Positions 4,232 through 64,000 of a stretch of 64,000 bases of DNA are shown here, one piece after another (within the stretch, counting starts at the first letter, position 1; each line of letters starts with the position of its first letter). The translations under genes and the position numbers were made by a program. The DNA is from a bacterium (lineage in GTDB: Bacteria; SZUA-79; Acidulodesulfobacterales; Acidulodesulfobacteraceae). The notes beneath the pieces are model-generated. The model was given only the letters and a program-made list of their open reading frames with translations, made no database searches and was not told where the DNA came from. The DNA is taken from contig DAHVNW010000003.1 in assembly GCA_027319095.1 (NCBI GenBank), positions 11,898 through 75,897 of the forward strand, read 5' to 3'.

Positions 4232-4234
4232 ATT

Positions 4235-5326: not shown

Positions 5327-6366
5327 AAAAAGAAAAATATAATATTGGCATAACGGGAGCTACCGGTCTTGTCGGAAGGGAATTTATAGAAATATTAGAG
5401 GAGAGAAATTTTCCGGTAAAAGAGATTTATCTTTTTGCTTCGGAGAATTCGTTCGGAGAAACCGTTGCGTTCAAGGGAAAAGATTATATAGTCGATGCCT
5501 TAAAAGAAGATTCTTTTAAGAAAAAAAATATCGACATAGTCTTGTCAAGTCCCGGAGGTTCGGTAAGCGCTAAATTTTCCCCCCTTGCCGCAAAAGAGGG
5601 AGCTGTAGTTATAGATAATACGTCTTATTTCAGGATGGATGAAAATATTCCATTAGTAGTTCCTGAAGTCAATCCCGAAGATATAAAATATTATTCCAAT
5701 AAAAATATCATTGCAAATCCTAATTGCTCCACTATACAGATGCTCGTTCCTCTTAAACCTATCCACGACAGGTATAAAATAAAAAGGATCCTGGTTTCGA
5801 CATACCAATCGACGTCAGGAGCAGGGAAAAAGGCAATGGATGAACTGTTTTATCAGACTACCGGAGTAATTAACGCAAAAAATGGTATATATCCCGAAAA
5901 ATTCCCTGTCCAGATTGCTTTTAACTGTATTCCCCAGATAGATGTTTTCGCAGATGAAGGATACACTAAAGAAGAAATTAAAATGCTTAAGGAAACGCAG
6001 AAGATAATGCACGATAAAAATATCGGCGTATCGGCGACGGCGGTACGCGTTCCGGTATTTTTTTCGCATGGAGAGTCGGTCAATATAGAAACCGAGAAAA
6101 CTTTCGATATTAAAGACATTAAGAAATTATTATCGGAAGCTAAAGGGGTCAAATTAATCGACGACGCTCTTAACGACAATCCGGACGAAAGATATCCTTA
6201 TCAAACGAACGTTGCAGGCAAAGACGAGGTTTTTGTGGGCAGGATAAGGAAGGATTTTTCCGTCGCAAACGGCATGAATTTGTGGATAGTTGCCGATAAC
6301 GTACGGAAAGGGGCGGCTCTTAATGCCGTTCAGATAGCGGAAATCCTTATTCAAAAATATCTTTAA
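5323..6366 (+). CDS. asd: Aspartate-semialdehyde dehydrogenase
   Basis: Reduces aspartyl phosphate to aspartate semialdehyde for lysine/diaminopimelate, threonine and methionine synthesis. The 347-aa protein begins with a [13 protein letters not shown] nucleotide-binding loop. The catalytic cysteine is C135 in NPNCSTIQM, and HGESVNIE carries family substrate-binding residues. It overlaps leuB by 4 nt and murJ by 1 nt (TAATG), so all three are probably one transcript. asd directly after leuB is common in deltaproteobacteria. Confidence 0.95.
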
Positions 6367-7886
6367 TGCGCGCGAACCTTGCAATAATTAAGAATCTGTC
6401 CGTCGTTTCTTTTTTTACTTTAATAAGCAGGATTTTGGGCTTGTTAAGAGATGTTTGCATCGCCTATTTTTTTGGAGCCGGCATTGAAACGGACGCTTTT
6501 TTCGTCGCATTCAGAATACCTAATTTATTCAGAAGACTTTTTGGAGAAGGCGGGATTTCGTCTTCTTTTATTCCGGTTTATTCGGAAAGCGTTGTTAAAA
6601 AAGACAAAAAAGAGTCCGAAGAACTATTTAAAACCGTTTTTACAGCTTTATTTTTCATTCTTTTATTTCTCTCCTTAGCCGGATTTTTATTTTCCTTTTT
6701 TTTCGTTACGATAACTGCGCCGGGTTTTTTATATAAGCCTTTGGAATTTGGTCTTGCCGTATTGCTGGCGAAAATTATGTTTCCTTATATATTTTTAATC
6801 GGGCTTACGGCATTTTTATCAGGGGTTTTGAACGTTCACGGCTCTTATGCCCCCGGGGCAATGTATCCCATAATCCTAAATGTTTTATTTATAATTTCGG
6901 CTGTTTTTTTAAGGCCGTTTTTTCATCCCGGCATATACGCTCTTGCCGTAGGAGTGATGATAGGCGGAGGATTGCAGCTTGTTTCGCAAATTTATTATAT
7001 TAAAAAAAAGAAAATAAATCTTGGCTTTAGTTTTAATTTTAAAAACAAAGGCGTTAGATCGGTTTTTAAACTGCTTACGCCTTCCCTTCTTGGAATGGCC
7101 GTAATTCAGCTCAACTTATTGTTCGATACCCTTCTTGCATCTTTTCTGCCGTTCGGAAGCATTTCTTTTTTATACTATGGCGACAGGCTTTATCAGTTTC
7201 CTCTCGGAGTTTTTGCGATAGCGATGCAGACGGCTATTTTTCCGGCGCTTTCTGCTTCGTTTGCAAAAAACGATATTGCAGAAGTCGGCAGGGCGTTTAA
7301 TTTTGCATCGTCGCTGATGTTTTTTATAATAATTCCTTCGAGCGTGGGATTAATTCTTTTAAAAAACAGGCTTGTCCAATTAATATACATGCACGGGGTG
7401 TTCAATGCGTTAGATGCACAAAAAACCGCAGGCGTACTTCTATTTTTCATAATAGGCTTATGGGCGTCTGCGCTCTTAAAAACGGTAGTTCCGGTTTTTT
7501 ATTCTATGAAAGACACAAAAACGCCAGTCAATGCCGCTATATTGTCTTTAATTGTTAACATTATATTTGCCGTTGCGCTTATGCAGTTTATCGGCGTATA
7601 CGGTCTTGCGCTGGCTTCCAGTATTTCGTTAATTTTTAACTATTTGTTTCTTTTAAGAAAGCTCCATTTAAAGAAAGGCATAAAATTAGGCGGCGGTTTT
7701 TTTAAATCTTTTACGAAAACTTTAATTGCGAGTCTGTTTATGGGAATATTCGTCGAATTTTTAATATTAGTTTTGATAAAATTAAATTACGGACCGCTGC
7801 CGGTTGTTTTAGCTTCGGTCTTCGCAGGCTTAGTAACTTATGTTCTTGCATCGTTTATCTTGAAAAATACCGTTATTCGCATCTAA
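6366..7886 (+). CDS. murJ: Lipid II flippase MurJ
   Basis: MOP-superfamily inner-membrane transporter that flips lipid II to the periplasmic side for peptidoglycan synthesis. It has 506 aa and about 14 hydrophobic segments. The N-terminal SRILGLLRD and GEGGISSSFIPVYSE stretches are typical of MurJ/MviN. The ATG overlaps the asd stop. A terminator-like hairpin follows in the next gap, suggesting the pssA-to-murJ block ends here. Confidence 0.94.
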   Translation: MRANLAIIKNLSVVSFFTLISRILGLLRDVCIAYFFGAGIETDAFFVAFRIPNLFRRLFGEGGISSSFIPVYSESVVKKDKKESEELFKTVFTALFFILLFLSLAGFLFSFFFVTITAPGFLYKPLEFGLAVLLAKIMFPYIFLIGLTAFLSGVLNVHGSYAPGAMYPIILNVLFIISAVFLRPFFHPGIYALAVGVMIGGGLQLVSQIYYIKKKKINLGFSFNFKNKGVRSVFKLLTPSLLGMAVIQLNLLFDTLLASFLPFGSISFLYYGDRLYQFPLGVFAIAMQTAIFPALSASFAKNDIAEVGRAFNFASSLMFFIIIPSSVGLILLKNRLVQLIYMHGVFNALDAQKTAGVLLFFIIGLWASALLKTVVPVFYSMKDTKTPVNAAILSLIVNIIFAVALMQFIGVYGLALASSISLIFNYLFLLRKLHLKKGIKLGGGFFKSFTKTLIASLFMGIFVEFLILVLIKLNYGPLPVVLASVFAGLVTYVLASFILKNTVIRI

Positions 7887-7983
7887 AACCCTATAACTAA
7901 GTTTTGTTATGCAAAATGATAATATCCTATATTAGCAGCGTGTCGAGGAAAAAGCCTTCATATTTATTGACCCCTCAGGTTAT

Positions 7984-8020
7984 CGCGGTGGGCGGCAACC
8001 CGCGTTTTGACTTTTTTTTT
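7984..8020 (+). terminator. Possible intrinsic terminator after murJ
   Basis: A CGCGG...CCGCG stem (7984-7988 with about 8000-8004) is followed by TTTTGAC and then nine T. The stem is short and the loop about 11 nt. The T-rich tail overlaps the -35 of the putative phoH promoter, a compact terminator-promoter arrangement. The rest of the 160-nt murJ-phoH gap shows nothing else I can name. Confidence 0.4.
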
Positions 8021-8034
8021 AATAATGTTATAAT
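8007..8034 (+). promoter_or_regulatory. Sigma-70-type promoter for phoH
   Basis: TTGACT at 8007-8012, a 16-nt spacer and TATAAT at 8029-8034. Transcription would be expected to start around 8041, only a few bases before the phoH ATG at 8047, so the message would be nearly leaderless. Confidence 0.6.
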
Positions 8035-8046
8035 CAAAAATATCAT

Positions 8047-9105
8047 ATGTATAAAATAAAAACGATTCCGAAAAATTCAGGACTTAAAAAAGGATTAAAA
8101 CCAGCAGCTGCAGAAAAGGCAGGGGCTGGAAATAATATAGAAATCGGAAAAATAGAACTCGAAGATATAGACCTCTTTAATAAATTTTCAAATCCGTCCG
8201 CCAATATAAAAGATATTATTGAAGCCGAATTCGGCGTCCATATATCGGTGAGGGGAAACGAATTACTTGTTAGAGGTGGCAGGCAAAATGTGGGAGTTTG
8301 CACCTCCTTTATCCGCGATTTGTTAAATTTATATAAAACAGGCGATGTTGTTAACGATAACGACTTAAAAAGACTATCAAAGTTAAAGATTGAAAATCCG
8401 CAAATCAATATAGCCTCCCAGATTTATTCGCCTATTTTATTAACTCCGAGAAAAAAAATTATAGCGCCGAGAACTCCTAACCAAAAAAAATATACCGATG
8501 CGATCTATAAAAGTGACGTAGTTATAGGCGTGGGTCCGGCAGGAACAGGCAAAACATACCTTGCGATGGCATGCGCAATATCTTTATTTCAGAAGAAAGT
8601 TTTTGACAGGATAATACTGACGCGTCCGGCTGTCGAAGCAGGGGAAAAATTAGGTTTCCTGCCCGGAGATATAGCGCAAAAAATTAACCCTTATCTAAGG
8701 CCTTTGTATGACGCGCTTTATGAAATGCTGGAATTTGAAAAGGCTATAAAACTTATAGAAACAGATGTTATTGAAGTAGCCCCTATCGCATTTATGAGAG
8801 GAAGAACCCTAAACAATTCCTTTATAATATTGGATGAAGCTCAAAATGCTACAAACGAACAGATGAAAATGATGCTTACGAGAATAGGTTCGGGCTCTAA
8901 AATCGTTGTAAACGGCGATATTACTCAAACCGACCTGCCTTCCGACAAAGAATCCGGACTAATAACCGCCGGCAGGATTTTAAGAAATATTGCCGGCATA
9001 GAAGTCGTTAATTTAGATAGAACCGACGTATTGAGGCATAAACTCGTCCAAAATATAATAAGAGCATATGAAACGAACGAAATTTCTAGAATTCCTAAAA
9101 AATAA
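8047..9105 (+). CDS. phoH: PhoH-family ATPase
   Basis: Cytoplasmic P-loop ATPase of the PhoH/YbeZ family, usually linked to YbeY and RNA/ribosome maintenance. The Walker A GVGPAGTGKT is at residues 161-170 and FIILDEAQNAT supplies the Walker B region. The N-terminal part looks like the KH-like region of the family. 352 aa is slightly long because of a basic N-terminus. The start sits directly behind a promoter with no visible Shine-Dalgarno, so a slightly later start is possible. It overlaps the HD-domain gene by 38 nt. Confidence 0.93.
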   Translation: MYKIKTIPKNSGLKKGLKPAAAEKAGAGNNIEIGKIELEDIDLFNKFSNPSANIKDIIEAEFGVHISVRGNELLVRGGRQNVGVCTSFIRDLLNLYKTGDVVNDNDLKRLSKLKIENPQINIASQIYSPILLTPRKKIIAPRTPNQKKYTDAIYKSDVVIGVGPAGTGKTYLAMACAISLFQKKVFDRIILTRPAVEAGEKLGFLPGDIAQKINPYLRPLYDALYEMLEFEKAIKLIETDVIEVAPIAFMRGRTLNNSFIILDEAQNATNEQMKMMLTRIGSGSKIVVNGDITQTDLPSDKESGLITAGRILRNIAGIEVVNLDRTDVLRHKLVQNIIRAYETNEISRIPKK

Positions 9106-11386
9106 CACCGTAGAAATTAAAAACCGTTATTCCCCTCTTTTAATCATTCTTTTAATATCCGCTATATTTTTAACTTTTTTACTTTATAATGGGTTGGAGT
9201 TTATTAAAAATAAGTATAAGGCAGGTGAAATATCGACAAAAACGATTATAGCCAAAAAAGGTTTTAGATACGTAAACGTAAAAGCTACGAATGCCTTTCT
9301 AAAAAATAAAATAGATAAAAGCCCGGCCGTATATCTGTACTATCCCGAAGTTAAAGAAACCCTTGCAAGAAAAATAAAAAGAGCTTTTGCCTTTGCCAGG
9401 TCGTATAAGGGCAGTCATGCGCTTAATAACCAAAATATGGAAATATCGGAAAATATATTTCTTTCTAAATTGGGTGTTAAATTGCACAGGACAGTTCTAA
9501 ATGAGTTTTATTATTTAAATTATAATAAAAATATCGAATCGTATATTTTGAAAATAGCTGCAAGTATTTACAATAAAGGAGTTTTATCCGCGCTACCGGC
9601 TGGAAATAAAAAAATCGAAATTAAAAACGTAATAACGAACAGGCGAAAAATTATTAGTTACCCGCAAATGTTTTTTACTTTAAGAAAAGAAAAAGGTTTT
9701 GCTTATTATTATACCAAAGAATATCTCGGTTTTTTGCCTTCCTATATGCAAAACGATATTTACGGTTTAGTTTACCGGATTATAAAACCCGACATAGTTT
9801 ATTCAAAATATCTTACGCTAAAAAAAATTGAAAGCATTAAAAAGGAAAACGAGCCTATTTATATAAAAGTAAATAAAGGAATGCTCCTTATAAAAGCTGG
9901 AGGACTAATAACTAAGTCGAAAGCACTCGAACTTAATACTTATTATGCCGAATTTAAACTAAAAAACAATATACCGTCGTTAATCGGACTATTTCTTATC
10001 ATAACCATGCTGTTGTCCTTATCTTATGCATTTCCTTATAAGTATATAAGAAAATTTAGGACTACTCTGGATTTTAAAAATATAGTTTTTATAATTTCCA
10101 TATTAATATTTTCAATATTTATGATTAAAGCCGGAATAATTTTTTCGGATGCCCTTTCGTTATATTTTCCTTTTATAAACAAGAGCGATATTTACTATTT
10201 AATCCCTTTTGCGTTTAGTCCTATGCTTGTAAGAATAATATTAAATTCCGAAGTGTCTATAGTTTATATAGCTCTTTTTTCTATACTTACCTCTATAATT
10301 TTTAAAAATTCTATATTTTTTATGATATATACTTTCGCGGGAAGTTTTATAGCTTCATATGAAGTTTTCGATTTTTCTTCCTGGGGGAGAGTGGTTAAGG
10401 CAGGAGTAATTACCGGATCTTTAAACTCTTTCATGGTTCTTGCTTTTGCGCTTATAAGACTCGATATTATAAGCGTCCAAAATATTTATGCTCTCTTTTT
10501 TGCGTTTCTATCCGGCATTACCGCTTCTATTACCGTTATAGGACTTATACCCCTACTTGAAAGAATATTCGATTTTACCACAGATTTTAAACTTTTAGAA
10601 CTTTCAAGTTCAGGCAATCCCCTATTGAGGCAATTTTCTATTGTCGCTCCGGGAACGTATCAACATTCCATAATGACGGCCACGCTTGCCGAGTCCGCTG
10701 CATCGGCGGTTGGAGCTAACCCGCTTTTGGCGAGGGTTGCAAGCCTTTACCACGATATAGGCAAGATAACTAAACCGAACTATTTTATAGAAAATATAGC
10801 TAATTCCGAGAATCCGCACGATAAACTTGCCCCCACTATGAGCAGTTTAATTATCGCTTCGCATGTAAAAGACGGGCAGGAACTTGCAAAAAAATATAAA
10901 CTCGGCAGTAAAATAGAAAGCATAATAAGCGAGCATCACGGTACGTCCATGATAGGCGCATTTTACGAAAAGGCTTTTAACGTTAATAAGGAAGCAAATA
11001 TTTCAAAAGATACTTTCAGGTATAGCGGAAAAAAGCCTCAGACGAAAGAAGCGGGTATAATTATGCTGGCGGATTCCGTAGAAGCGATATCGAGGTCTAT
11101 GGCCAATATATCTCCTTCGAGGCTCGAACTTATGGTTAGAAAAACTATTAATAGAATTTATACCGACGGCCAGCTCGATGAATGCCAACTCACATTGAAA
11201 GACCTTCATGTCATAGGAGATGCTTTCGTGAAAGTTTTAAATTCCATATTTCATCAGAGGGTTCCATATGCCGGAAGGAACGGGAAGGACGGCGATAAAA
11301 ATGAAGCGGACGAAATCGATAATAAATATAACGGATACGCAAAAAAAGCTGAAAATAGATCCAAAGTCAGTCCGCTATATCGTTAA
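9068..11386 (+). CDS. 7TM-7TMR-HD family membrane phosphodiesterase (PgpH-like)
   Basis: A 772-aa membrane protein with one N-terminal helix (about residues 24-42), a long extracytoplasmic region, a run of hydrophobic helices (about 305-490) and a cytoplasmic HD phosphohydrolase domain. The HD motif is H562-D563 in LYHDIGK, with further metal ligands such as ISEHHGT downstream. In Firmicutes the same architecture (PgpH) hydrolyses cyclic di-AMP. That substrate is inferred here from family only. The phoH-HD-ybeY-dgkA order matches the Firmicute and deltaproteobacterial cluster. Confidence 0.87.
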   Translation: MKRTKFLEFLKNNTVEIKNRYSPLLIILLISAIFLTFLLYNGLEFIKNKYKAGEISTKTIIAKKGFRYVNVKATNAFLKNKIDKSPAVYLYYPEVKETLARKIKRAFAFARSYKGSHALNNQNMEISENIFLSKLGVKLHRTVLNEFYYLNYNKNIESYILKIAASIYNKGVLSALPAGNKKIEIKNVITNRRKIISYPQMFFTLRKEKGFAYYYTKEYLGFLPSYMQNDIYGLVYRIIKPDIVYSKYLTLKKIESIKKENEPIYIKVNKGMLLIKAGGLITKSKALELNTYYAEFKLKNNIPSLIGLFLIITMLLSLSYAFPYKYIRKFRTTLDFKNIVFIISILIFSIFMIKAGIIFSDALSLYFPFINKSDIYYLIPFAFSPMLVRIILNSEVSIVYIALFSILTSIIFKNSIFFMIYTFAGSFIASYEVFDFSSWGRVVKAGVITGSLNSFMVLAFALIRLDIISVQNIYALFFAFLSGITASITVIGLIPLLERIFDFTTDFKLLELSSSGNPLLRQFSIVAPGTYQHSIMTATLAESAASAVGANPLLARVASLYHDIGKITKPNYFIENIANSENPHDKLAPTMSSLIIASHVKDGQELAKKYKLGSKIESIISEHHGTSMIGAFYEKAFNVNKEANISKDTFRYSGKKPQTKEAGIIMLADSVEAISRSMANISPSRLELMVRKTINRIYTDGQLDECQLTLKDLHVIGDAFVKVLNSIFHQRVPYAGRNGKDGDKNEADEIDNKYNGYAKKAENRSKVSPLYR

Positions 11387-51919: not shown

Positions 51920-52288
51920 ATGGGGGACGTTTTATTGAAAGCTTTTATTCCTATCCTTATAATGCTTGTATTAGCAATTTTATTTGCCGTTTTTAACATA
52001 TTAGCTTCAAATTTTATCGGAAAGAAAACTTATGAATCCGGCAAATTAACGGCTTATGAATGCGGCATAGAACCGGCCGGCGAACCCCATGTCAGGTTCG
52101 ATATAAAATTTTACCTCATTGCCATTTTTTTTCTTCTTTTCGATATAGAAGCTCTTTTTTTATTTCCGTGGGCGGTAATATTTTCTAAGTTAGGTATCTT
52201 GGGTTTTGTCGAAATGTTTTTATTTATAGTAATATTAGTTTTAGGCTTGCTTTACGTATGGCTTAAAGGAGCTCTTAAATGGGAATAG
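51920..52288 (+). CDS. nuoA: NADH-quinone oxidoreductase subunit A
   Basis: Membrane subunit of complex I at the junction with the peripheral arm. 122 aa with three transmembrane helices and the conserved [20 protein letters not shown] loop and [11 protein letters not shown]. It starts the nuo operon and overlaps nuoB by 10 nt. Confidence 0.95.
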
Positions 52289-52773
52289 AAGAACACCTTG
52301 GAGACAATATTATTACCGCTTCTTTGGATAAGATAGTTTCTTGGGGGCGGAAATGGTCTATCTGGCCTGCAACTTTCGGTTTGGCATGTTGCGCGATAGA
52401 AATGATGACTACCGCTTCTTCGAGATACGATTTCGACAGGTTAGGATTAATATTCAGGTCAAGTCCAAGACAATCCGATTTAATTATAGTATCGGGAAGG
52501 GTTTCCTATAAAATGGCGCCCATGGTTAAAAGAATTTACGACCAGATGCCCAATCCAAAGTGGGTTATAGCAATGGGCGATTGCGCATGCTCCGGCGGAC
52601 TTTTTAATGTTTATAGCATTGTTCAGGGAGTCGATAGAATTATTCCGGTAGATGTTTATGTACCCGGGTGCCCTCCAAGACCGGAGGCTCTTATTTACGG
52701 CATAGTAAAACTTCAGGAAAAAATAGGAAAAGGCACTATTAAACATGAAGCTCCGCCGCAAATTATAAGATAA
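52279..52773 (+). CDS. nuoB: NADH-quinone oxidoreductase subunit B
   Basis: Carries the terminal 4Fe-4S cluster N2 next to the quinone site. Ligands are visible in [11 protein letters not shown] (double Cys), GDCACSGG and [10 protein letters not shown]. 164 aa is normal. It lies between nuoA and nuoC. Confidence 0.96.
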
Positions 52774-52819: not shown

Positions 52820-53335
52820 ATGGACGTAAATTTTGCATTGGCCGTTATAAAAGAATCTATGCAGAAAAAAATAGTAGCGGCCGGAAACGTTAACAGAGAT
52901 GCGTATATACAAATTCAAAAGGAAGACCTTCTTGAATTTGCAGATTTTTTTAAAAATGATCCGAGGTTAAAGTTCGATATGCTTTCCGATTTATTTGCCG
53001 TAGATTATCCTAAAAGACCCGAAAGAATAGAAGTTATATACAATTTTTATTCCGTCGTAAACAACTTTAGAATATTTATTAAAATAAGGAGTAAAATCGA
53101 CGAATCCGAATATCCCAGTTTAACTTCCTTTTATAATTCAGCCAATTGGTTTGAAAGGGAAGTTTACGATATGTTCGGATTAAAATTTAAAGGCCACCCC
53201 GATTTAAAAAGAATATTAAATCCGGACGACTGGGACGGACATCCGCTTCTTAAGGATTATCCGTTGAGAAAAAGGCCGGAACCCGAAGAAATAGAAATGG
53301 ATAGGCCAGGATATATAGAATTGGATAAAATATAA
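52820..53335 (+). CDS. nuoC: NADH-quinone oxidoreductase subunit C
   Basis: 30-kDa-type subunit of the peripheral arm. ANWFEREVYDMFGLKFKGHPDLKRIL and DGHPLLKDYPL are diagnostic. Separate from nuoD, unlike in E. coli where they are fused. 171 aa. Confidence 0.95.
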   Translation: MDVNFALAVIKESMQKKIVAAGNVNRDAYIQIQKEDLLEFADFFKNDPRLKFDMLSDLFAVDYPKRPERIEVIYNFYSVVNNFRIFIKIRSKIDESEYPSLTSFYNSANWFEREVYDMFGLKFKGHPDLKRILNPDDWDGHPLLKDYPLRKRPEPEEIEMDRPGYIELDKI

Positions 53336-53367: not shown

Positions 53368-54567
53368 ATGTTCGAATACAAAGATTTTCTTATAGAAACG
53401 GATAAATTCGCTTTAAACGTCGGACCTTCGCATCCGGCTACGCATGGAGTCTTAAGGGTTTTAGTAAAACTTGACGGAGAAACCGTTGTTCATGCGGAAC
53501 CTATGATAGGATATCTTCATACGAGCATGGAAAAACTTGCGGAACATAGAACATATCATCAGGCCGAAACTATTACGGACAGAATGGATTATGTTTCCGG
53601 AGCTTCGAATAATCTGGGATATATTCTTGCCGCAGAAAGACTTTGCGGCGTTAAAGCGTCTAAAAGAGCCGAATATGTCAGGGTTATTTTAGCGGAATTT
53701 ACAAGGATAAGTTCGCATCTTGTATGGCTTGCTACCCATGCAGTTGACCTTGGCGCCCTGACCGAGTTTTTATACTGTTTCCGTGAAAGAGAACTTGTCC
53801 TCGATATTATAGAAACGGTTACAGGACAGAGAATGACGCCTTCTTTTTTTCGTGTAGGAGGTCTTGCAATGGATTTTCACAAAGATTTTGTAAATAAAAC
53901 TAAAGATTTTATTAAAATTTTTCCTGAAAAAATCAATGAATACGAAGCTCTTTTAACAAAAAATAAGATATGGCTCGAAAGAACTAAAAATATCGGAGTA
54001 ATTTCTGCCGAAGATGCGATAAATTTTGCCCTGACCGGACCTTCGCTTAGAGGCAGCGGGGTTAAATATGACGTTAGAAAGGCAAGTCCTTATTCTAGAT
54101 ACGAGGACTTCGATTTCGAAATACCTATAGGAGAAATAGGAGACGTGTACGACAGATATTTGGTGAGAATCGAAGAAATGAGGCAGAGCCTTAAAATAAT
54201 TTCTCAGGCTATAGACAATATTCCTGAAGGCGAATACTCAAGTTATCACGAATATCCGGCTTATGTTATTCCTCCCAAAAAAAAAGCGTTAACGACCATG
54301 GAGGGAATGATATTTCTTTTTAAATACGGAATGGAAGGAATAAAGCCGCCCAAGGGAGAGGCATACGTTTCCATAGAAAATCCAAGGGGAGAATTAGGCT
54401 TTTATTTGGTATCCGACGGCTCTGCTTTTCCTTATAGAATGAGAGTTAGGCCGCCTTCTTTTTGCAATATCAGCGCTTTAAATAAAATGACCGCAGGTTA
54501 TATGGTAGCCGATCTAATAGCTATTATGGGAAGCGTGGATATATTGCTTGGAGAAGTCGATAGATAA
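53368..54567 (+). CDS. nuoD: NADH-quinone oxidoreductase subunit D
   Basis: 49-kDa-type subunit that forms the quinone-binding cavity with NuoB. NVGPSHPATHGVLR, the YLHTSMEKLAE loop with the quinone-site His, and the C-terminal DILLGEVDR are present. 399 aa. The next gene begins only 16 nt later, leaving no room for nuoE. Confidence 0.96.
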   Translation: MFEYKDFLIETDKFALNVGPSHPATHGVLRVLVKLDGETVVHAEPMIGYLHTSMEKLAEHRTYHQAETITDRMDYVSGASNNLGYILAAERLCGVKASKRAEYVRVILAEFTRISSHLVWLATHAVDLGALTEFLYCFRERELVLDIIETVTGQRMTPSFFRVGGLAMDFHKDFVNKTKDFIKIFPEKINEYEALLTKNKIWLERTKNIGVISAEDAINFALTGPSLRGSGVKYDVRKASPYSRYEDFDFEIPIGEIGDVYDRYLVRIEEMRQSLKIISQAIDNIPEGEYSSYHEYPAYVIPPKKKALTTMEGMIFLFKYGMEGIKPPKGEAYVSIENPRGELGFYLVSDGSAFPYRMRVRPPSFCNISALNKMTAGYMVADLIAIMGSVDILLGEVDR

Positions 54568-54583: not shown

Positions 54584-56494
54584 ATGAAAATTATCGATAA
54601 AATAGGTTCGAAATTAGACGTTTCGTTTTTTGAAAGATCGGGACACCGCGAAATTTCGTCCATACTCAGCTGGAAAGGAATAGTTTTACTAGATGAAGAG
54701 GACAATAAGGTTGATTTGGCGCGGTGCTATATGCAGGAACTCCAAAGAACATCCTGCGGAGTTTGCGTGCCTTGCACCGTCGGAACAGCCGTTGCTTCCG
54801 ATATTTTAGAACATATTTGTAACGGGAGGGCTATTTCGGAAGACATCGACAGGCTAAAAAAACAGTGCGAGTGGATCCTTTCTTCTTCTAAATGCGCCGT
54901 GGGAACGATAGGTCCCTCTGCAGTCATCGAGTTAATCGATAATTTTCGCGAAGATTTCGAAAAAACGATAACGGATAAAAAAGTTATACAAAAGGGCGAC
55001 TATATAACGAAAGTTACTGCTCCTTGTGTTAACGGATGTCCGTCAAAATTGGATATTCCAAATTGGATAGAAAGGGTCAGGGACGGAAGATTCGAGGACG
55101 CTTTGGAATTGGTTAGGAGAAATACTCCTTTTGCCGGCATTCTCGGTAGAACGTGTTTTCACCCATGTCAGGATAACTGCCGCCGGACAAATATAGACGA
55201 ATCTATAGAAATATGCTTGATAAGAAGATTTGCTGCCGATAACGAGTTCTACACCGGTATAAGGCCTAAGTTTTCTATTAAAAGCAACGGAATTAAAATA
55301 GGAATCGTCGGTTCCGGTCCTGCAGGCCTAAGTTGTGCCTATTATCTTAGGCTTATGGGCTATAAGCCCGTGATATTCGAAGCCTTGCCTGTACTTGGCG
55401 GAATGATGAATGTAGGCATTCCAAAATACAGGCTGCCGCAAGAATTCTTAGATAAAGAACTAGGCTATATACTTTCGACAGGCATCGATTATAAATTAAA
55501 TAAGCGTCTCGGCGTGGATTTTACTATAAAGGACCTTTTCGACCAAGATTTTAAAGCGGTTTTTCTTGCGGTAGGCGCTCATAAAGGACAGAACATAGGC
55601 TTGCCCGGCGAGAACGACAACCTTAATGGTTTTTATGAAGGCGTTAAGTTTTTAAGAGACGTTACTTTGGGGAATAAAATCGAAATTGGCAAAAAAGTTA
55701 TCATAGAAGGTGGCGGAAACGTAGCGATAGATTGCTGCAGGACGGCAATAAGATTAGGGTTTAAAGAAGTTATCGTGGTATATAGAAGGACTAGGCAGGA
55801 AATGCCGGCAGCGCAATATGAAATAGATACCGCAATAAAAGAGGGCGTTAAATTTGAATTTTTAACAAATCCCGTAAGCATTATTAATGAAAACGGCAAG
55901 GTTAGCGGCGTAAGATGCAGAGAAATGAAACTGGGAGAACCTGATGCGAGCGGCAGAAGAAGTCCCGTAGAGGTTAAGGATTCCGATTTCGATATCGGAT
56001 GCGATTCGTTTATTATGGCTGTCGGACAGGTTCCGGATTTGGATTTCTTAAAAGATACGCCTCAGATTAAAACGGATAAGGGCAAAATTATAATAGCCGA
56101 CAAGTTTACCCATATGACGGATATGCCTGGAGTTTTTGCCGGCGGCGACGTATTTACGGGGCCTATCAGCATTGTAGATTCCAACCGCGACGGAAAAAAT
56201 GCGGCAAGGAGGATAGACCAGTATATAAGAACAGGTTCTTTTGAGGCTACGGATGATTGCCTTTTTGAATATTTTTTGGAAGATATAGGCGTTTACGATA
56301 AAGACGAAATAATCGACTATACCGATTTTCCCGCCGGGAATCCCGCAGCCAAACAAATTGAGGAAGACCTCGGCAAACGGATAAAAAATTTCAAGGAAGT
56401 CGATAAAGGATTAACCGCCGACGACGTAATTTATGAAGCGACAAGGTGTATGAGATGTTATTTTCTTATGCTTATAAAGTTTAAAGGACAATAA
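54584..56494 (+). CDS. NuoF C-terminal 4Fe-4S domain fused to a GltD/SfrB-like FAD-NAD(P)H oxidoreductase
   Basis: Replaces NuoE and NuoF in the operon. Residues about 45-125 match only the C-terminal cluster domain of NuoF (SCGVCVPC with C58, C61, C64; then C104). Residues about 140-220 are a GltD-type ferredoxin region (C148, C152, C191, C195, C199). Two Rossmann parts follow: FAD loop GSGPAG (243-248) and NAD(P) loop GGGNVAID (376-383) with VVYRRTRQEMPA after it. The FMN- and NADH-binding body of NuoF is missing. Likely passes electrons from NAD(P)H through FAD and clusters to NuoG. SfrAB of Geobacter carries comparable modules on separate chains. Confidence 0.85.
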   Translation: MKIIDKIGSKLDVSFFERSGHREISSILSWKGIVLLDEEDNKVDLARCYMQELQRTSCGVCVPCTVGTAVASDILEHICNGRAISEDIDRLKKQCEWILSSSKCAVGTIGPSAVIELIDNFREDFEKTITDKKVIQKGDYITKVTAPCVNGCPSKLDIPNWIERVRDGRFEDALELVRRNTPFAGILGRTCFHPCQDNCRRTNIDESIEICLIRRFAADNEFYTGIRPKFSIKSNGIKIGIVGSGPAGLSCAYYLRLMGYKPVIFEALPVLGGMMNVGIPKYRLPQEFLDKELGYILSTGIDYKLNKRLGVDFTIKDLFDQDFKAVFLAVGAHKGQNIGLPGENDNLNGFYEGVKFLRDVTLGNKIEIGKKVIIEGGGNVAIDCCRTAIRLGFKEVIVVYRRTRQEMPAAQYEIDTAIKEGVKFEFLTNPVSIINENGKVSGVRCREMKLGEPDASGRRSPVEVKDSDFDIGCDSFIMAVGQVPDLDFLKDTPQIKTDKGKIIIADKFTHMTDMPGVFAGGDVFTGPISIVDSNRDGKNAARRIDQYIRTGSFEATDDCLFEYFLEDIGVYDKDEIIDYTDFPAGNPAAKQIEEDLGKRIKNFKEVDKGLTADDVIYEATRCMRCYFLMLIKFKGQ

Positions 56495-56503
56495 TTTACT
56501 AAA

Positions 56504-58612
56504 ATGGATATAGAGATTGCAATAAACGGAAGAAAAATAATGACCCAATCCGGTATAACTATACTGGAAGCAGCCTCTCAAAACGGGATAAGAATACCGG
56601 CGCTTTGTTATTTAAAAAGGTTGAGGCCTATCGGTTCCTGCAGGGTCTGCGTCGTCGAGGTCGAAGGAATAAAAAATCCTGTTCCGGCTTGCGTAGCTAA
56701 AATTAAAGAAGGCTATAAAATTTCGACTGAAACCGAAAGGGTTTGGCAGATAAGAAAAAAAGTCATTTCCCATCTTCTCTTGGATCATCCCTTAGATTGC
56801 CCCGTTTGCGATAAATCAGGGGAATGTCTTTTACAGGACCTTACTTTTGAATTTGGAATTACTACGCAGAAAAATGAAAAAGTATTTCCCGATAGGACTA
56901 AAATTTTTAAAAGCGACCTGATAGAATATAATGCCACGAGATGCGTTTTGTGTTCAAGGTGCATAAGGGTCTGCACGGATATGTACGGAAATCCTTTTTT
57001 GCAAATGAAAGATAAAGGCGATAAAGGTTATATAGGTTTGCGGCATGAAGATAAAATAGAATTAGGCGTAGTTCCTTCGGAACATTGCGGTTTTCAAGAA
57101 ATCAAACCTGTTGCCGAATATTTGAGCTGCTATTATTGCGGAAACTGCATTGAAGTTTGCCCCGTAGGAGCGCTTCTTTCCAAACCTTCTAAGTTTAAGG
57201 AAAGATACTGGATGGAGATCCCTTTTTCGTCGGTTTGCGATAAATGTTCCTCCGCATGCAGAATCGAGTACTATAGATATGCTAAAGAGGAATCTTTAGT
57301 AAGGACGGTTTCTCCGTTCGGGGGGTATTTGTGTAAAAAAGGCTTCTTTTACGAAGGCATTGGGAAAAATAACGGATACTATATTAATTCGCCATATATA
57401 AAAAAGAAATCAACCAATGAGGAAGCCCCTCTTGAAAGCGCATTAGACGAACTATCGTTCAGAATCAGAAACATTTTAGAAAAGGGCGGAGCCGAAAATA
57501 CGGCTGTTTTAGTTTCCCCCGGCGTTTCTAATGATGACGGCTTTGTTGTAGCAAAGTTTATAAAAAACATATTAAAGCCGGCATATTTCGATATTTCGGA
57601 GCCTGAATTTTATAGAACTAATTTCAATAAATTCAAATCCGAATTTAAAGGCGAAGAAATATTCGACATTAAAACTATCGAGAATTCCGATGTTATGCTT
57701 TATATTGGAAATATCGAGGACGAAATTCCTTATGCCGCATATAATATAATGAAAACACGAAGGGGGCAAGGAGGGAAGTTTTTATCCGTAAATGTAGGCA
57801 ATAATTCCAATAATGCGTTTAACAGGTTCGAAGATATCGCTTGCGTAAAAAAAGACCTCGGTTTATCTTCTTTGAAAGATTTTTTTAATACGCTTAAGGA
57901 AGGCTTAAGGGAAAGCGGTGTTGAAAAAGATGACGAAATAATCGAAAGCATGCTCTATGCCAATTGCATTTCCATTATACTGGGCGACGCTCTTTTATCT
58001 TCATACGATTTGAGCGCAGATATTTTAATTTTAAAGGAAATAGTAGCCTTTTTAAGGAATTCTGGTAAAATCACATATATCTATCCGCTTGCAAAGCCTT
58101 TTAATTATAGGGGGCTTATTAACGCGGGAGTAAATCCCGACGGCGGTATTTCAGGCTTTAACCTAATAAAATCCGGACTAAGCGGCGGAAAAATTAAAAA
58201 TCTTATTTATATAGGCGACATATCTAATGACGAGTCTTCCAAGGAAATATTAAAATACGCTTCCGATTTGGAATTTTTAGCCGTATTTTCGTCTAAGACT
58301 AGCATACTTTCCGCCATGGCGGATGTCGTCATACCCGTTAAGGACTTCCTTGAAAGCAAAGAGGCATTTTACGAAAATTTCGAAGGTAAGATTATACAGG
58401 TGAATAACGGGTTTAACTTTGGCGGATACAGGCGCGATATTTTGTCCTTATTGAAAGGAATTTCGGTAAGGCTGGGACATTCTTTTGATTATATCGACGA
58501 AGAATTATCGAGCCTGATAGATTCGTTTAAAGCGAAAAACGTAATTTATTACAATAAAATTAAAGCGCGGAGCAAATTTTATTATAACGATAAAACAAAG
58601 GTATATTATTAA
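56504..58612 (+). CDS. nuoG: NADH-quinone oxidoreductase subunit G
   Basis: Main cluster-carrying subunit of the peripheral arm. Clusters can be placed: 2Fe-2S (ALCYLKRLRPIGSCRVC then PACVAK), the His-Cys3 site (HPLDCPVCDKSGECLLQD), two 4Fe-4S sites (CVLCSRCIRVC and CYYCGNCIEVC), and an N7-like CDKCSSAC. The C-terminal half is a divergent molybdopterin-oxidoreductase-like domain without cofactor. 702 aa. It starts 9 nt after the fusion gene and so is its likely electron acceptor. Confidence 0.93.
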   Translation: MDIEIAINGRKIMTQSGITILEAASQNGIRIPALCYLKRLRPIGSCRVCVVEVEGIKNPVPACVAKIKEGYKISTETERVWQIRKKVISHLLLDHPLDCPVCDKSGECLLQDLTFEFGITTQKNEKVFPDRTKIFKSDLIEYNATRCVLCSRCIRVCTDMYGNPFLQMKDKGDKGYIGLRHEDKIELGVVPSEHCGFQEIKPVAEYLSCYYCGNCIEVCPVGALLSKPSKFKERYWMEIPFSSVCDKCSSACRIEYYRYAKEESLVRTVSPFGGYLCKKGFFYEGIGKNNGYYINSPYIKKKSTNEEAPLESALDELSFRIRNILEKGGAENTAVLVSPGVSNDDGFVVAKFIKNILKPAYFDISEPEFYRTNFNKFKSEFKGEEIFDIKTIENSDVMLYIGNIEDEIPYAAYNIMKTRRGQGGKFLSVNVGNNSNNAFNRFEDIACVKKDLGLSSLKDFFNTLKEGLRESGVEKDDEIIESMLYANCISIILGDALLSSYDLSADILILKEIVAFLRNSGKITYIYPLAKPFNYRGLINAGVNPDGGISGFNLIKSGLSGGKIKNLIYIGDISNDESSKEILKYASDLEFLAVFSSKTSILSAMADVVIPVKDFLESKEAFYENFEGKIIQVNNGFNFGGYRRDILSLLKGISVRLGHSFDYIDEELSSLIDSFKAKNVIYYNKIKARSKFYYNDKTKVYY

Positions 58613-58649: not shown

Positions 58650-59636
58650 ATGTTATTCTGGCTTATTGCCGAAATTATTAAGATATTAATCGTTTTTGCC
58701 GGACTGCTTTTGTCGGCCGCTTACCTTACGCTTTTAGAGCGTAAAATAGCCGCCAGGATACAGAACAGGATGGGTCCCATGGAAGCTGGTTTTCACGGTT
58801 TGCTTCAGCCTATAGCGGACGGTATAAAACTATTTTTCAAAGAAGATATTATTCCGACCGAAGCAAATAAGTTTTTATTTATTTTAGCTCCGATAATTGT
58901 GGTTATACCTGCTTTAAGCACTTTTGCAGTCATTCCTTTCGGAGCGCCGGTAAAAATTTTAGGACATATAGTCCCCCTTCAAATAACCGATGTAAATATA
59001 GGCGTGCTTTTTATTCTTGCGCTGACGTCGCTGGGCGTTTACGGCGTAGTTATAGGAGGGTGGGCTTCCAACAGCAAATATTCTCTCTTAGGAGGCATAA
59101 GGACCGCCGCCCAGATGGTCAGTTATGAGATCCCGCTCGTTCTTTCCATAATAGGAGTAATTATGATTGCCGGAGATTTGAGCCTCTCTAAAATTGTATC
59201 CGAGCAATCGCATATTTGGTTTGTAGTATATCAGCCCGTAGGATTTATAATTTATTTAATAGCCTCTACAGCCGAAATGAACAGGGTCCCTTTTGACATA
59301 GGAGAGGCGGAAGGAGAATTAGTGGCAGGATTTCATACGGAATACTCGAGTATGGAATTTGCGTTTTATTTTATCGGCGAATACGCTCAAATGGTGGTAA
59401 ATAGCGCCGTAATAGTCACCCTGTTTCTGGGCGGATGGCAGGGGCCGTTACTTCCCTCTTTCGTATGGTTTATAATAAAAGTATTTTTTGTTATACTTAT
59501 TTATTTATGGCTGAGATGGACATATCCTAGACTTAGATACGACGAACTCATGGATTTCGGATGGAAATTTTTACTTCCATTAGCTTTAGCAAATATTATA
59601 GTAACCGGTTTTATAATGATTATTCTCAAGGGATAA
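58650..59636 (+). CDS. nuoH: NADH-quinone oxidoreductase subunit H
   Basis: Membrane subunit forming the quinone tunnel with NuoB/NuoD. Eight or so helices; RIQNRMGPMEAGFHGLLQP and the EMNRVPFDIGEAEGELVAGF loop are diagnostic. 328 aa. Confidence 0.96.
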   Translation: MLFWLIAEIIKILIVFAGLLLSAAYLTLLERKIAARIQNRMGPMEAGFHGLLQPIADGIKLFFKEDIIPTEANKFLFILAPIIVVIPALSTFAVIPFGAPVKILGHIVPLQITDVNIGVLFILALTSLGVYGVVIGGWASNSKYSLLGGIRTAAQMVSYEIPLVLSIIGVIMIAGDLSLSKIVSEQSHIWFVVYQPVGFIIYLIASTAEMNRVPFDIGEAEGELVAGFHTEYSSMEFAFYFIGEYAQMVVNSAVIVTLFLGGWQGPLLPSFVWFIIKVFFVILIYLWLRWTYPRLRYDELMDFGWKFLLPLALANIIVTGFIMIILKG

Positions 59637-59659: not shown

Positions 59660-60175
59660 ATGAATACGGAAAAACAAGAAAATTCCATCGTAGAAATTTC
59701 GAAAAATTTATTGATAGGGCTTAAAACCACGATTAGTACTTTTTTTAAAAAGCCGGTGACCTTTCAATACCCTAAAGAAAAAAGACAGATAGCGGACAGA
59801 TACAGGGCTTTTCCGCATCTTAACGTAAATGGAGACGCTTCCTTAAGATGCGTCGCATGTTTTCTATGCCAGACCGTATGTCCTTCGGAAGCGATTAAAA
59901 TAAGGTCGGGTTACGTCGATTACGGCACCGAACACGAGCTTACGGAAAGGCAGGCGCATAATCACAGTTTAGACGCTTCAAAACAAGGGGTTCTTAACGA
60001 CGGAAGAAGGCATCCGTCGTCTTTCGAAATAGATTTATTAAGATGCATAGGATGCGGCTACTGCGAGGAGATTTGTCCGGAAGAAGCAATAAGCATGGGC
60101 AGCGATTACGAAGTAGCTTTTTATACGCGCGAGGAAGGAATTTACGGCATAGATAAATTAATAAAATCAAAATAA
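59660..60175 (+). CDS. nuoI: NADH-quinone oxidoreductase subunit I
   Basis: Carries clusters N6a and N6b between NuoG and NuoB. Two 4Fe-4S motifs: CVACFLCQTVCP and CIGCGYCEEICP. RYRAFPHLNVNGDASLRC is the family N-terminal block. 171 aa. Confidence 0.95.
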   Translation: MNTEKQENSIVEISKNLLIGLKTTISTFFKKPVTFQYPKEKRQIADRYRAFPHLNVNGDASLRCVACFLCQTVCPSEAIKIRSGYVDYGTEHELTERQAHNHSLDASKQGVLNDGRRHPSSFEIDLLRCIGCGYCEEICPEEAISMGSDYEVAFYTREEGIYGIDKLIKSK

Positions 60176-60188: not shown

Positions 60189-60692
60189 TTGGAAGCGCTT
60201 TTTTATATTTTTTCGTTTATAGCAATTTTTTCGGCGTTAATGGTAATATCAATGAAAAATCCGTTGACGTCGGCGCTATATTTAATATTATGTTTTTTTG
60301 CGTTTTCGGGTTTCTACGTAATGCTCGATATGCAGTTTCTTGCCGTTATGCAGATTCTGGTTTATGCCGGAGCCATAATGGTTCTTGTAGTTTTAGTTAT
60401 AATGATATTAAACATTTCTAAGATTAAACGAGTCGAAACCGATTTTCACCAGAAATTTATCGGAATTTTAATTTCTCTAATTATTTTTGTAGAAATTATT
60501 TTTTATATAATAAACGGCAGCCAAAAAAAATCCACCGGTATTTTTACCGGCGCTGTAATAAAAAAAATAGGCAATACGCAGATAATAGGAGAATTTTTAT
60601 TTACAAAATACACGCTGTCTTTCGAAATTGCGTCCGTTCTATTATTTGTAGCCATAATAGGCGCTTATATATTCGCAAAGAAAAAATTTTAA
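60189..60692 (+). CDS. nuoJ: NADH-quinone oxidoreductase subunit J
   Basis: Membrane subunit with five helices. MKNPLTSALYLILCFFAFSGFYVMLD-like block and QILVYAGAIMVLVVLVIMI are diagnostic. A TTG start with a GGGTGG signal just upstream is used; an ATG at 60184 is out of frame. 167 aa. Confidence 0.93.
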   Translation: MEALFYIFSFIAIFSALMVISMKNPLTSALYLILCFFAFSGFYVMLDMQFLAVMQILVYAGAIMVLVVLVIMILNISKIKRVETDFHQKFIGILISLIIFVEIIFYIINGSQKKSTGIFTGAVIKKIGNTQIIGEFLFTKYTLSFEIASVLLFVAIIGAYIFAKKKF

Positions 60693-60710: not shown

Positions 60711-61004
60711 ATGAGTAATTATTTAATATTAGCTACTATTATTTTTACTATAGGCGCGGCAGGAGTTATAATACGCAAAAATTTAATCGTAGTATTCATG
60801 AGTTTAGAGCTTATGTTTAATTCCGCCAATTTGGGATTTGTGGCGGTATCCAATGCATTAAATCTTGTTTCAGGCGACATATTCGTTATTTTCGTCATGG
60901 TAGTAGCGGCGGCAGAAGCGGCTGTCGCTTTGGGTATAGCTATAGCGTTTTACAGGGAAAAAGGAACCGCTGATATAGACGAAGCATCGGAATTAAAAAA
61001 TTAA
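60711..61004 (+). CDS. nuoK: NADH-quinone oxidoreductase subunit K
   Basis: Small antiporter-like membrane subunit with three helices. LIVVFMSLELMFNSANLGFVA carries the conserved Glu in the helix, and VMVVAAAEAAVALGIAI the second one. 97 aa is normal. Confidence 0.95.
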   Translation: MSNYLILATIIFTIGAAGVIIRKNLIVVFMSLELMFNSANLGFVAVSNALNLVSGDIFVIFVMVVAAAEAAVALGIAIAFYREKGTADIDEASELKN

Positions 61005-61023: not shown

Positions 61024-62907
61024 ATGGATTTTAAAGAACTTATAACTTGGCTCATTCCGGCATTCCCGCTTGCAGGATGGTTTTTATGGGGGCTGTTCGG
61101 AAAATATTTTAAAGGAATCTCGGGGTATTTAGCCAGCGCTTTTGTCGGCATATCTTTTATTTTGTCGGTAATTCTCTTTATTATAGTAGCTTATTCTCAT
61201 GGTTTTACCGATACTCTTTATCCATGGATACATGCCGGCATATTTAAAGCAGGGGTTACGGCGGTAATAGACAGGCTTTCGATAATTATGCTCGTTATGG
61301 TTACCGGGGTCAGTACGTTAGTCCATATATATTCTATCGGATATATGCAAGGCGATAAAGGTTTTTCGCGTTATTTTTCATTTTTGAATCTCTTTGTTTT
61401 TTCCATGATAATGCTCGTTATTTCCGACAATCTCTTGCTCCTTTATGTTTTTTGGGAAGCCGTCGGATTCTGTTCTTATATATTAATAGGATTCTGGTAT
61501 GAAAAAAAGTCTGCCTCCGATGCAGGCAAAAAAGCGTTTATAGTTAATAGAATCGGAGACTTCGGTTTTGCCGTCGGGATTTTTCTTTTGTTCCTTACTA
61601 CCAAAACTTTAAATTATCAAGCCGTATTTTCTATGATACCGTCGATTCCGGCATATACCGTTACCGCTATAGCTTTGCTTTTATTTGCCGGAGCCGTAGG
61701 AAAATCGGCCCAATTCCCTTTACACGTCTGGCTGCCCGATGCCATGGAAGGACCTACTCCGGTTAGCGCGTTGATACATGCGGCGACTATGGTTACTGCT
61801 GGAGTTTATATGGTTGCAAGATTTCACGTTATATTCTCTTATTCCCCTGCTGCATCCGAAGTAGTTCTTATAGTAGGGACATTTACCGCATTTTTTGCGG
61901 CGTTTATAGCATTAACCCAGTTTGACATAAAGAGAATAGTGGCATATTCGACGCTTAGCCAGCTCGGATATATGTTTATGGCTGTAGGAATAGGCTCTTA
62001 TACGGCGGGTATTTTTCACCTTATATCGCACGCAATTTTCAAAGGGCTTCTGTTTCTAACTGCAGGAAGCGTTATGCACGGACTTTCAGGAGAGCTTGAT
62101 TTAAGAAAAATGGGCGGGTTATACAAAAAAATGAAAACAACTGCTATTACGTTTATAATAGGAGGACTCGCATTGTCCGGAATACCGCCTTTTTCCGGGT
62201 TTTTCTCTAAAGATGCCATACTTGCCGATGTTTATAATAAAGGTTTTTATTTTGCATGGGCGGTAGGGGAAATAACGGCGCTAATGACCGCTTTTTATAT
62301 TTTTAGATTAATCTTTCTTGCCTTTTTTTCAGAATCGAAGCTCGATCCGAAATTGCACGTTCACGAGTCTCCCGGAATTATGACTGTCCCAATGATAATT
62401 TTAGCTTTGGTTGCTCTAATAATAGGCTTTTTGGGAATACCGCCATTTAACGATTCTATATTTTACGGTTTTTTACATGTAGATTTTCAAAATGCGCACA
62501 TTTTCGACCCAATCGCGAATAACGCTCCATGGTATTTTTTAAGCCTCATTTCGGTCTTGATGGGATTGTCCGGAATATACATCGCATATATCCTGTATAT
62601 TAAAAAGGCGGTAAGTCCGGAAAAAATTAAATCGATGTTTAAACCTGTTTATTTATTATCGTATAATAAAGTTTATATCGATGAAATATATGATTTTTTA
62701 ATCATTAAGCCGCTGTTGGCCTTTTTTAATTTTCTATGGAAAGTTATGGACGTTAAGATTATCGATGGCGCGGTTAACGGCATAGCGTCTGCATTTGCCG
62801 GTTTTTCGGTAAAAGCGAGAAAAATGCAAAACGGTTTATTGATGAGCTATATTTTAACGCTTTCTGTAGGCGTAGCCGCTCTCCTTTTTTATTATTTTGT
62901 AAGATAA
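61024..62907 (+). CDS. nuoL: NADH-quinone oxidoreductase subunit L
   Basis: Distal Mrp-antiporter-like proton-pumping subunit, 627 aa with about 16 helices, including the long lateral helix near the C-terminus. YVFWEAVGFCSYILIGFWY, the Lys/His helix KSAQFPLHVWLPDAMEGPTP and SALIHAATMVTAGVY are diagnostic. Confidence 0.95.
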   Translation: MDFKELITWLIPAFPLAGWFLWGLFGKYFKGISGYLASAFVGISFILSVILFIIVAYSHGFTDTLYPWIHAGIFKAGVTAVIDRLSIIMLVMVTGVSTLVHIYSIGYMQGDKGFSRYFSFLNLFVFSMIMLVISDNLLLLYVFWEAVGFCSYILIGFWYEKKSASDAGKKAFIVNRIGDFGFAVGIFLLFLTTKTLNYQAVFSMIPSIPAYTVTAIALLLFAGAVGKSAQFPLHVWLPDAMEGPTPVSALIHAATMVTAGVYMVARFHVIFSYSPAASEVVLIVGTFTAFFAAFIALTQFDIKRIVAYSTLSQLGYMFMAVGIGSYTAGIFHLISHAIFKGLLFLTAGSVMHGLSGELDLRKMGGLYKKMKTTAITFIIGGLALSGIPPFSGFFSKDAILADVYNKGFYFAWAVGEITALMTAFYIFRLIFLAFFSESKLDPKLHVHESPGIMTVPMIILALVALIIGFLGIPPFNDSIFYGFLHVDFQNAHIFDPIANNAPWYFLSLISVLMGLSGIYIAYILYIKKAVSPEKIKSMFKPVYLLSYNKVYIDEIYDFLIIKPLLAFFNFLWKVMDVKIIDGAVNGIASAFAGFSVKARKMQNGLLMSYILTLSVGVAALLFYYFVR

Positions 62908-62980: not shown

Positions 62981-64000
62981 ATGACATTTTTTATAAGATA
63001 TTTATTGACTATTTTGATTTTTTTTCCGACCGCATCCGTTTTGTTATTGCTTCTAATAAATAAAAAGAACGAAGGGCTGTTAAGAAACCTTTCAACGTTT
63101 CTCGCTTTAGTTGAGTTTATTTTATCGCTGTATCTTTTCGTTTATTTTAAGCCTGATACTTATAAATTTCAGTTCGTAGAAAAATTTAATTGGATTCCGT
63201 CTTTCGGAGCATCATATTTTCTCGGCATAGACGGTTTAAGCCTGTTTTTAATACTGCTGACTACCCTCTTAACCTTTATTTCATTATTATCCAGTTATAA
63301 ATACATAAAAGAAAATGTTAAAGAATTCGTTATCCTTATGCTTTTGCTGGAAACTTTTATGATAGGAACTTTTGCAGCTTTAGATATCCTGCTGTTCTAT
63401 CTTTTTTGGGAATTTATGTTAATACCTATGTATTTTATAATAGGTATGTGGGGAACCGGCAGAAGGGTTTATTCTGCCGTAAAGTTTGTCCTTTATACCC
63501 TTTCGGGATCGCTGATAATGCTTTTCGGGTTTATTTATATTTTTATGATGCATTATAATCAGACGGGAAATTTCACTTTTAATTTATTAAGGTTATATCA
63601 CACCCATATTCCAGAGGGACTCCAGATTCTTTTATTTATTGCTTTATTTTTAGGTTTTGCAGTTAAGATTCCTCTTTTTCCCTTTCACACTTGGCTTCCG
63701 GACGCGCATACCGAAGCTCCGACCGCTGGCAGCGTTATTCTTGCCGGCGTTTTATTGAAATTCGGAGTTTACGGATTTTTTAGATTTGCTATTCCTTTAT
63801 TGCCGCGGGCGTCTTTTGCAGTTGCCCCTTATATTATTCTTCTAGGCGTTATAGGTATTCTTTACGGAGCGTTTGTTTCTATAGTGCAGAAAGATTTAAA
63901 AAGATTAGTCGCATTTTCCAGCGTTTCGCATATGGGTTTTATAATACTCGGTCTTTTTGCGATGTCGGCTATAAGTATAAGCGGTTCTATAATCCAGCTT
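62981..64000 (+). CDS. nuoM: NADH-quinone oxidoreductase subunit M, 3'-truncated by the window edge
   Basis: Middle antiporter-like proton-pumping subunit. The open frame begins MTFFIRYLLTILIFFP after an AAGGA Shine-Dalgarno and is still open at 64000 (340 codons seen of the usual 480-530). FYLFWEFMLIPMYFIIG, VKIPLFPFHTWLPDAHTEAP and SVILAGVLLKFGVYGFFRF are diagnostic of NuoM. Confidence 0.95.
   Translation, partial: MTFFIRYLLTILIFFPTASVLLLLLINKKNEGLLRNLSTFLALVEFILSLYLFVYFKPDTYKFQFVEKFNWIPSFGASYFLGIDGLSLFLILLTTLLTFISLLSSYKYIKENVKEFVILMLLLETFMIGTFAALDILLFYLFWEFMLIPMYFIIGMWGTGRRVYSAVKFVLYTLSGSLIMLFGFIYIFMMHYNQTGNFTFNLLRLYHTHIPEGLQILLFIALFLGFAVKIPLFPFHTWLPDAHTEAPTAGSVILAGVLLKFGVYGFFRFAIPLLPRASFAVAPYIILLGVIGILYGAFVSIVQKDLKRLVAFSSVSHMGFIILGLFAMSAISISGSIIQL

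Follow-up and report, generated by a model that had tools for sequence, protein, structure and literature searches.

A NuoF-tail/GltD fusion in the place of NuoE and NuoF: a probable NADPH-fed complex I in Acidulodesulfobacterales

Our analysis suggests that a complex I operon of the Acidulodesulfobacterales, a lineage whose habitat is acid mine drainage, probably encodes a proton-translocating NADPH:quinone oxidoreductase in which a single fusion protein, here called X, replaces both NuoE and NuoF. No respiratory proton pump is larger than complex I, whose textbook form is fed by NADH via FMN. The gene of X lies in a stretch of 64,000 nucleotides, called the window below, from a metagenome-assembled genome of approximately 1.78 Mb that is 97% complete. 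We take X to be the input subunit of the complex because of its domain architecture, the lack of any other NuoE or NuoF for complex I, the conserved and recurrent nuo context of its gene, and its almost entirely invariant iron-sulfur ligands.

An earlier note on this DNA, made from the letters alone, had proposed the gene order nuoABCD-X-GHIJKLM, with 16 nt between nuoD and X and 9 nt between X and nuoG. Both the order and the spacings match the coordinates of the open reading frames (Table 1), and nuoN lies just past the window, making the full operon nuoABCD-X-GHIJKLMN. Open reading frames, Pfam and NCBIfam show that the Q and P modules (NuoABCDHIJKLMN) are encoded together in this operon, in which we found no NfnA-like gene. 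The match of NuoG to TIGR01973 falls below the equivalog cut-off, and the ligands of its clusters N1b, N5 and N7 and of its eight-Cys dicluster are invariant (52 of 52 rows). Eight Cys are also found at the dicluster of the closest solved NuoG (7q5y_A), so that this detail is not new. Contamination or mis-assembly is ruled out by the order being common to 28 relatives. Two other observations concern the nuo-type genes of this genome: the nuoI of the window encodes about 30 extra residues between the two cluster motifs, and a second NuoD homologue, resembling those of group 4 hydrogenases, is encoded elsewhere in the genome (G000:C87:12619-13368).

Table 1. Features of the operon. Positions are counted from the first letter of the window.
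Feature	Position	Strand	Evidence
nuoA	51920..52288	+	ORF; 70-87% identity in family genomes
nuoB (N2 cluster subunit)	52279..52773	+	ORF; 88-96% identity in family genomes
nuoC	52820..53335	+	Pfam Complex1_30kDa, E 2e-44
nuoD	53368..54567	+	Pfam Complex1_49kDa, E 4e-115
X: NuoF-tail/GltD fusion, predicted NADPH-oxidising input subunit in place of NuoE and NuoF	54584..56494	+	
X residues 44-127: NuoF C-terminal N3 [4Fe-4S] domain (C58, C61, C64, C104)	54713..54964	+	Pfam NADH_4Fe-4S PF10589, E 1e-18
X residues 127-222: GltD-type double cluster domain (C148, C152, C191, C195, C199, R214)	54962..55249	+	Fer4_20 PF14691, E 1e-21
X residues 239-530: FAD and NAD(P)H Rossmann domains	55298..56173	+	Pyr_redox_2 PF07992, E 2e-29
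YRR motif, X residues 400-402 (Y400-R401-R402), predicted 2'-phosphate binder of NADPH	55781..55789	+	
C-terminal CxxC of X (C622, C625)	56447..56458	+	alignment with 4ylf_B and 5jca_L, second segment
nuoG, predicted first acceptor of electrons from X	56504..58612	+	TIGR01973 NuoG, E 1e-82, below the equivalog cut-off
nuoH	58650..59636	+	ORF; 83-92% identity in family genomes
nuoI (N6a/N6b clusters)	59660..60175	+	TIGR01971, above cut-off
nuoJ, TTG start	60189..60692	+	ORF; conserved in family operons
nuoK	60711..61004	+	ORF; family operons
nuoL	61024..62907	+	ORF; family operons
nuoM, runs past the window edge	62981..64000	+	nuoM end and nuoN read in L177

X is an open reading frame of 636 aa with an ATG start. 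The earlier note described it as the C-terminal cluster domain of NuoF joined to a GltD ferredoxin region and Rossmann domains, a description that the Pfam and NCBIfam profiles bear out. Residues 21-129 align to positions 302-410 of the 410 of NuoF, i.e., its final 109 residues, and the remainder aligns with GltD-type families. The PF10589 match is above the Pfam cut-off, and the N3 domain that hands electrons to NuoG is thus present, including the four cysteines that had been named for it, whereas Pfam identified no NuoF FMN domain in X. Among 59 X proteins, C58, C61 and C104 of this domain are invariant, as are C148, C152, C191, C195 and C199 of the GltD part, and C622 and C625 are kept in every alignment row that reaches the C-terminus. 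C64 is replaced by Gly in four Nitrospinota proteins that keep the other N3 cysteines; the Nitrospinota X proteins of complex I operons L090, L092, L094 and L095 have CxxCxxG, not CxxCxxC, at this place. Judging by the alignment, the predicted N3 cluster of X is therefore not universally a four-Cys one.

The ligands of the two GltD-type clusters can be predicted from the alignment with NfnB and the ligand list published for the latter (PMC7596348). The proximal cluster would be held by C152, C191, C195 and position 214, and the distal one by C148, C199, C622 and C625. The last two form a C-terminal CxxC which, like the YRR motif at residues 400-402, was absent from the earlier note and is added here; in the alignment it corresponds to the C39/C42 segment that NfnB has at its N-terminus, shifted to the C-terminus as in StnC. 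The predicted structure of X superposes on the NADP(H)-bound NfnI (5jca_L) with an rmsd of 1.9 Angstrom over 430 columns in Foldseek. That X docks on NuoG is a prediction based on gene context and on the N3 domain that X has kept. An AlphaFold model of X read through into residues 1-300 of NuoG is confident for X, and NuoG past its first domain mostly has pLDDT <50. Open frames of approximately 1361 aa in three relatives raised the possibility that X and NuoG are fused, which we rejected because the two genes are separated by a TAG, and TAG serves as a normal stop for other genes of these operons (nuoA, acs).

If X is the input subunit, no NuoE and NuoF should be found serving this complex from elsewhere. 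The absence from the operon of NuoE and of the FMN/NADH part of NuoF, noted earlier, was confirmed, and the search for a separate nuoEF matching the operon returned a single NuoEF, in a formate dehydrogenase locus. The host genome has genome-wide only one match to PF01512 (NuoF FMN/NADH domain) and one to PF01257 (NuoE); both belong to one NuoE-NuoF fusion, on another contig, adjoining an FdhA-type gene. PF01512 is missing in 12 of 30 family genomes, including assemblies that are 95-100% complete (G017, G018, G020, G005), and in the other 18 the NuoF-type gene adjoins an fdhA-type gene wherever its neighbour falls inside the fetched stretch. A canonical NuoEF serving complex I from elsewhere was thus rejected for the family genomes searched, the host's own among them. 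Many PF01512 matches in more distant X-bearing genomes have little or no NuoF-like alignment, and these are presumably RnfC.

Of the 30 family genomes searched, 28 carry the gene of X (the host's own being one of them), at 70-86% identity. The order nuoD-X-nuoG, whose conservation had been proposed as a check, holds in all 28, and the assemblies of the two genomes without X (G007 and G009) also lack the nuoD of complex I. X might still be a soluble NADPH oxidoreductase of the SfrB type, perhaps paired with NuoG, while complex I would be fed at NuoI by ferredoxin or some other donor. Related X-like proteins are indeed paired with soluble NuoG/FdhA-like partners or stand alone, and 11-subunit complexes lacking the N-module function in other organisms (PMC11238625). 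Yet, X occupies the exact slot of nuoEF in the 28 family genomes, it retains, of NuoF, the single domain that is turned towards NuoG in the ordinary enzyme, its gene appears to have joined complex I operons at least twice (see below), and NuoG keeps its full cluster chain, all of which makes a separate soluble role improbable.

The nucleotide that X uses can be predicted from its YRR motif. This motif is invariant in the 59 X proteins, and in NfnB of T. maritima the same motif holds the 2'-phosphate of NADPH (PMC7596348). In the DsrL family, the tested YRR-bearing DsrL-2 is strictly NADP(H)-dependent and inactive with NAD(H), whereas the enzymes without YRR prefer or require NAD(H) (PMC7596348). 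X thus probably uses NADPH, to the extent that a motif calibrated outside its own subfamily is a guide. The structural match of X to the NADP(H)-bound NfnI points the same way. The swap might alternatively have concerned the flavin module and not the fuel, with X using NADH, or both nucleotides equally, since NADH is what feeds the canonical complex and NADH specificity occurs in some flavoproteins of the GltD type, such as DsrL-1 (PMC7596348). We find this unlikely: the NADH-specific DsrL-1 has no YRR, a motif that every X protein carries at the 2'-phosphate site, and the co-occurrence in one genome of X-type and canonical NuoEF complexes I suggests that the X type has a different donor. The host genome itself has two DsrL paralogues (L042 5863-7554 and L043 4035-5747), one with YRR and the other with YNK at the NADPH site; a published survey gives YNK for the DsrL of the host's group.

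With NADPH as the favoured donor, we propose the following path. NADPH would bind the second Rossmann domain of X and pass a hydride to FAD, from which electrons would move one by one to the proximal [4Fe-4S] cluster (C152, C191, C195, R214), then to the distal one (C148, C199, C622, C625) and on to the NuoF-derived N3 cluster (C58, C61, C64, C104). The onward route from N3 would be that of the ordinary enzyme, into NuoG and then by way of NuoI and NuoB to quinone. The enzyme would be reversible, and a high proton-motive force could drive the formation of NADPH from quinol. The FAD of X is probably non-bifurcating, as in the enzyme Stn, whose StnC has a Lys ligand at the site matching position 214 of X and a non-bifurcating FAD (PMC10482914). 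Position 214 is Arg in the Acidulodesulfobacterales family and Lys in the other X proteins, where NfnB has Glu117. That X might instead bifurcate or confurcate like NfnB, e.g., from NADPH to quinone and ferredoxin in a three-substrate complex, is suggested by its homology to NfnB, by the retention of R283, the counterpart of the R201 discussed for bifurcation, and by the precedent of Nuo-Bfu, a proposed confurcating complex I (PMC9304861). Stn, however, also keeps this Arg, and its FAD is non-bifurcating (PMC10482914). X shares with Stn the Arg/Lys at the Glu ligand site, and Pfam identified in it neither a second flavin domain nor extra ferredoxin-type clusters, so that bifurcation appears very unlikely.

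X also occurs in complex I operons outside the Acidulodesulfobacterales. In a scan of the genome collection, Nitrospinota, Nitrospirota, Desulfobacteria and a spirochaete (Spirochaetota) were found to have X in operons of the order X-nuoG-nuoABCDHIJK, and Abyssobacteria and Poribacteria in X-nuoG-nuoJKLM clusters, with an identity of about 40% in both cases. The gene order of the complex I operons with X in other phyla differs from that of the Acidulodesulfobacterales. In one sampled Nitrospinota-type phylum, full-length X was present in 16 of 24 genomes. Some genomes with an X-type complex also hold a canonical NuoEF complex I; one of them (G052) has such a separate nuoEF complex beside an X-type set split over two contigs, with nuoABCDHI on one and X-nuoGJKLMN on the other. 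Some X genes stand alone, with no nuo neighbour (L091, L093). At two loci (L248 of G148, 3309-10597, and L075, 6246-12753), X lies directly upstream of nuoABCDHI(JK) and nuoG is found neither between nor beside them; here, X may donate electrons to a complex of 11 subunits that has no NuoG. One genome (G081, labelled Desulfosudis oleivorans) has an 11-subunit nuo operon (L249) with no N-module nearby and a lone X gene elsewhere (L093 8881-10848). Finally, a 1019-aa NuoF-GltD fusion that keeps the FMN domain lies just upstream of nuoABCD and nuoG in G049 (L027 1-6268), and may represent a stage on the way from NuoF to X.

The phylogenies of NuoD and X tell different histories. In the NuoD tree, the X-type complexes fall with strong support into two clades: that of the Acidulodesulfobacterales groups with nuoEF-type complexes, whilst the second contains the remaining phyla that have X. 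A single origin of X-type complex I was rejected on NuoD (AU p = 0.0023). In the X protein tree, a single clade (97/91) holds both sets; outside it are the related Desulfobacteria proteins, the Abyssobacteria/Poribacteria set and the 1000-aa NuoF-GltD fusions. Because the complexes are split on the NuoD tree and the X proteins are in one clade, it is simplest to assume that two different complex I lineages took up X from a single lineage and that the module was grafted at least twice; given the long branches, we regard the trees as evidence for this, not as proof. On balance, we favour the existence of a widespread and unreported class of NADPH:quinone complex I, formed by at least two grafts of one NuoF-tail/GltD subunit, in which X may also be the donor of some of the NuoG-less 11-subunit complexes (G148, L075, Desulfosudis).

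A complex I fed by NADPH via FAD would tap a pool that is more reduced, or would make NADPH directly by reverse electron flow, in lineages without an ion-driven transhydrogenase. The formation of NADPH from quinol would be useful to a sulfur/iron acidophile such as the host, since neither PntB above cut-off nor Rnf/Nqr was found in any of the 30 family genomes. A 2024 study considered the donor to complexes without N-module unresolved (PMC11238625), and an NADPH-fed form would provide an answer for part of the bacteria. Surveys that call such complexes incomplete, or plain NADH dehydrogenases, would then need correction, as the 2019 description of the order gives nuo complexes without nuoE, nuoF and nuoG (PMC6776010). 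In the literature that we searched, no paper links an NADPH subunit of the SfrB/GltD type with a true complex I, though an earlier mention may exist elsewhere. The related X-swapped pumps of several phyla seem to be undescribed so far.

Compared with the canonical 14-subunit Nuo/Nqo enzyme, the X-type complex shares NuoABCD and NuoGHIJKLMN, with the NuoG cluster chain, and of NuoF the N3 domain. It lacks NuoE, cluster N1a and the FMN/NADH part of NuoF, and has an FAD/NADPH-type GltD module instead. X itself has the features of GltD/NfnB-type proteins, i.e., Fer4_20 and two Rossmann domains, two sets of [4Fe-4S] ligands and YRR; it differs from bifurcating NfnB by R214 or Lys at the Glu117 site and by an operon without an NfnA-like gene. 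The best structural and sequence matches to X are Stn (StnABC) and the NfnABC of Caldicellulosiruptor and Thermococcus (PDB 8oh5, 9bov, 9n5u), which share with it the GltD module, the C-terminal CxxC and the Lys/Arg at the proximal ligand position. The Stn structure indicates that the GltD module passes electrons of NADPH through NuoG-type clusters (PMC10482914). Yet, in Stn/NfnABC this module is fused into a NuoG-like subunit, a full NuoEF bifurcates, and the enzyme is soluble with no membrane arm, whereas in the X type the module is joined to the NuoF tail, next to a separate NuoG and with no NuoEF, and serves a proton pump.

Other relatives use GltD-type modules in different settings. In the SfrB-type enzymes (SfrAB of Geobacter and the NADPH formate dehydrogenase of Moorella), set against X here by description only, a GltD-type beta subunit is the NADPH module of a NuoG/Fdh-like partner (PMC13040438, PMC7483475); these enzymes are soluble in those reports and have no link to complex I. 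DsrL is likewise a GltD-type NAD(P)H flavoprotein with YRR/non-YRR specificity, but it serves sulfite reductase, has C-terminal ferredoxin clusters and lacks the NuoF tail. GltD is also coupled to a complex-I-like enzyme in an Mbx-like operon (L247 5541-13745, G041), the last gene of which is a 609-aa NuoI-GltD fusion; there, in contrast to X, the fusion is to NuoI with no NuoF tail, and the NuoD is only 33% identical to that of the window. An exchanged N-module also characterizes Nuo-Bfu, the proposed complex I of Geobacter, but that enzyme keeps a full FMN-containing NuoF-type BfuB with extra clusters and is proposed to confurcate NADH and ferredoxin (PMC9304861), whereas X lacks the FMN domain. 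Further inputs to complex I relatives include F420 in Fpo (PMC9012536) and ferredoxin in the cyanobacterial NDH-1 (cited in PMC11238625). Exchanged input modules of complex I relatives are thus already known or proposed; an NADPH-fed class with a module of the GltD type would be a further one, and gene context gives good support to its predicted wide occurrence.
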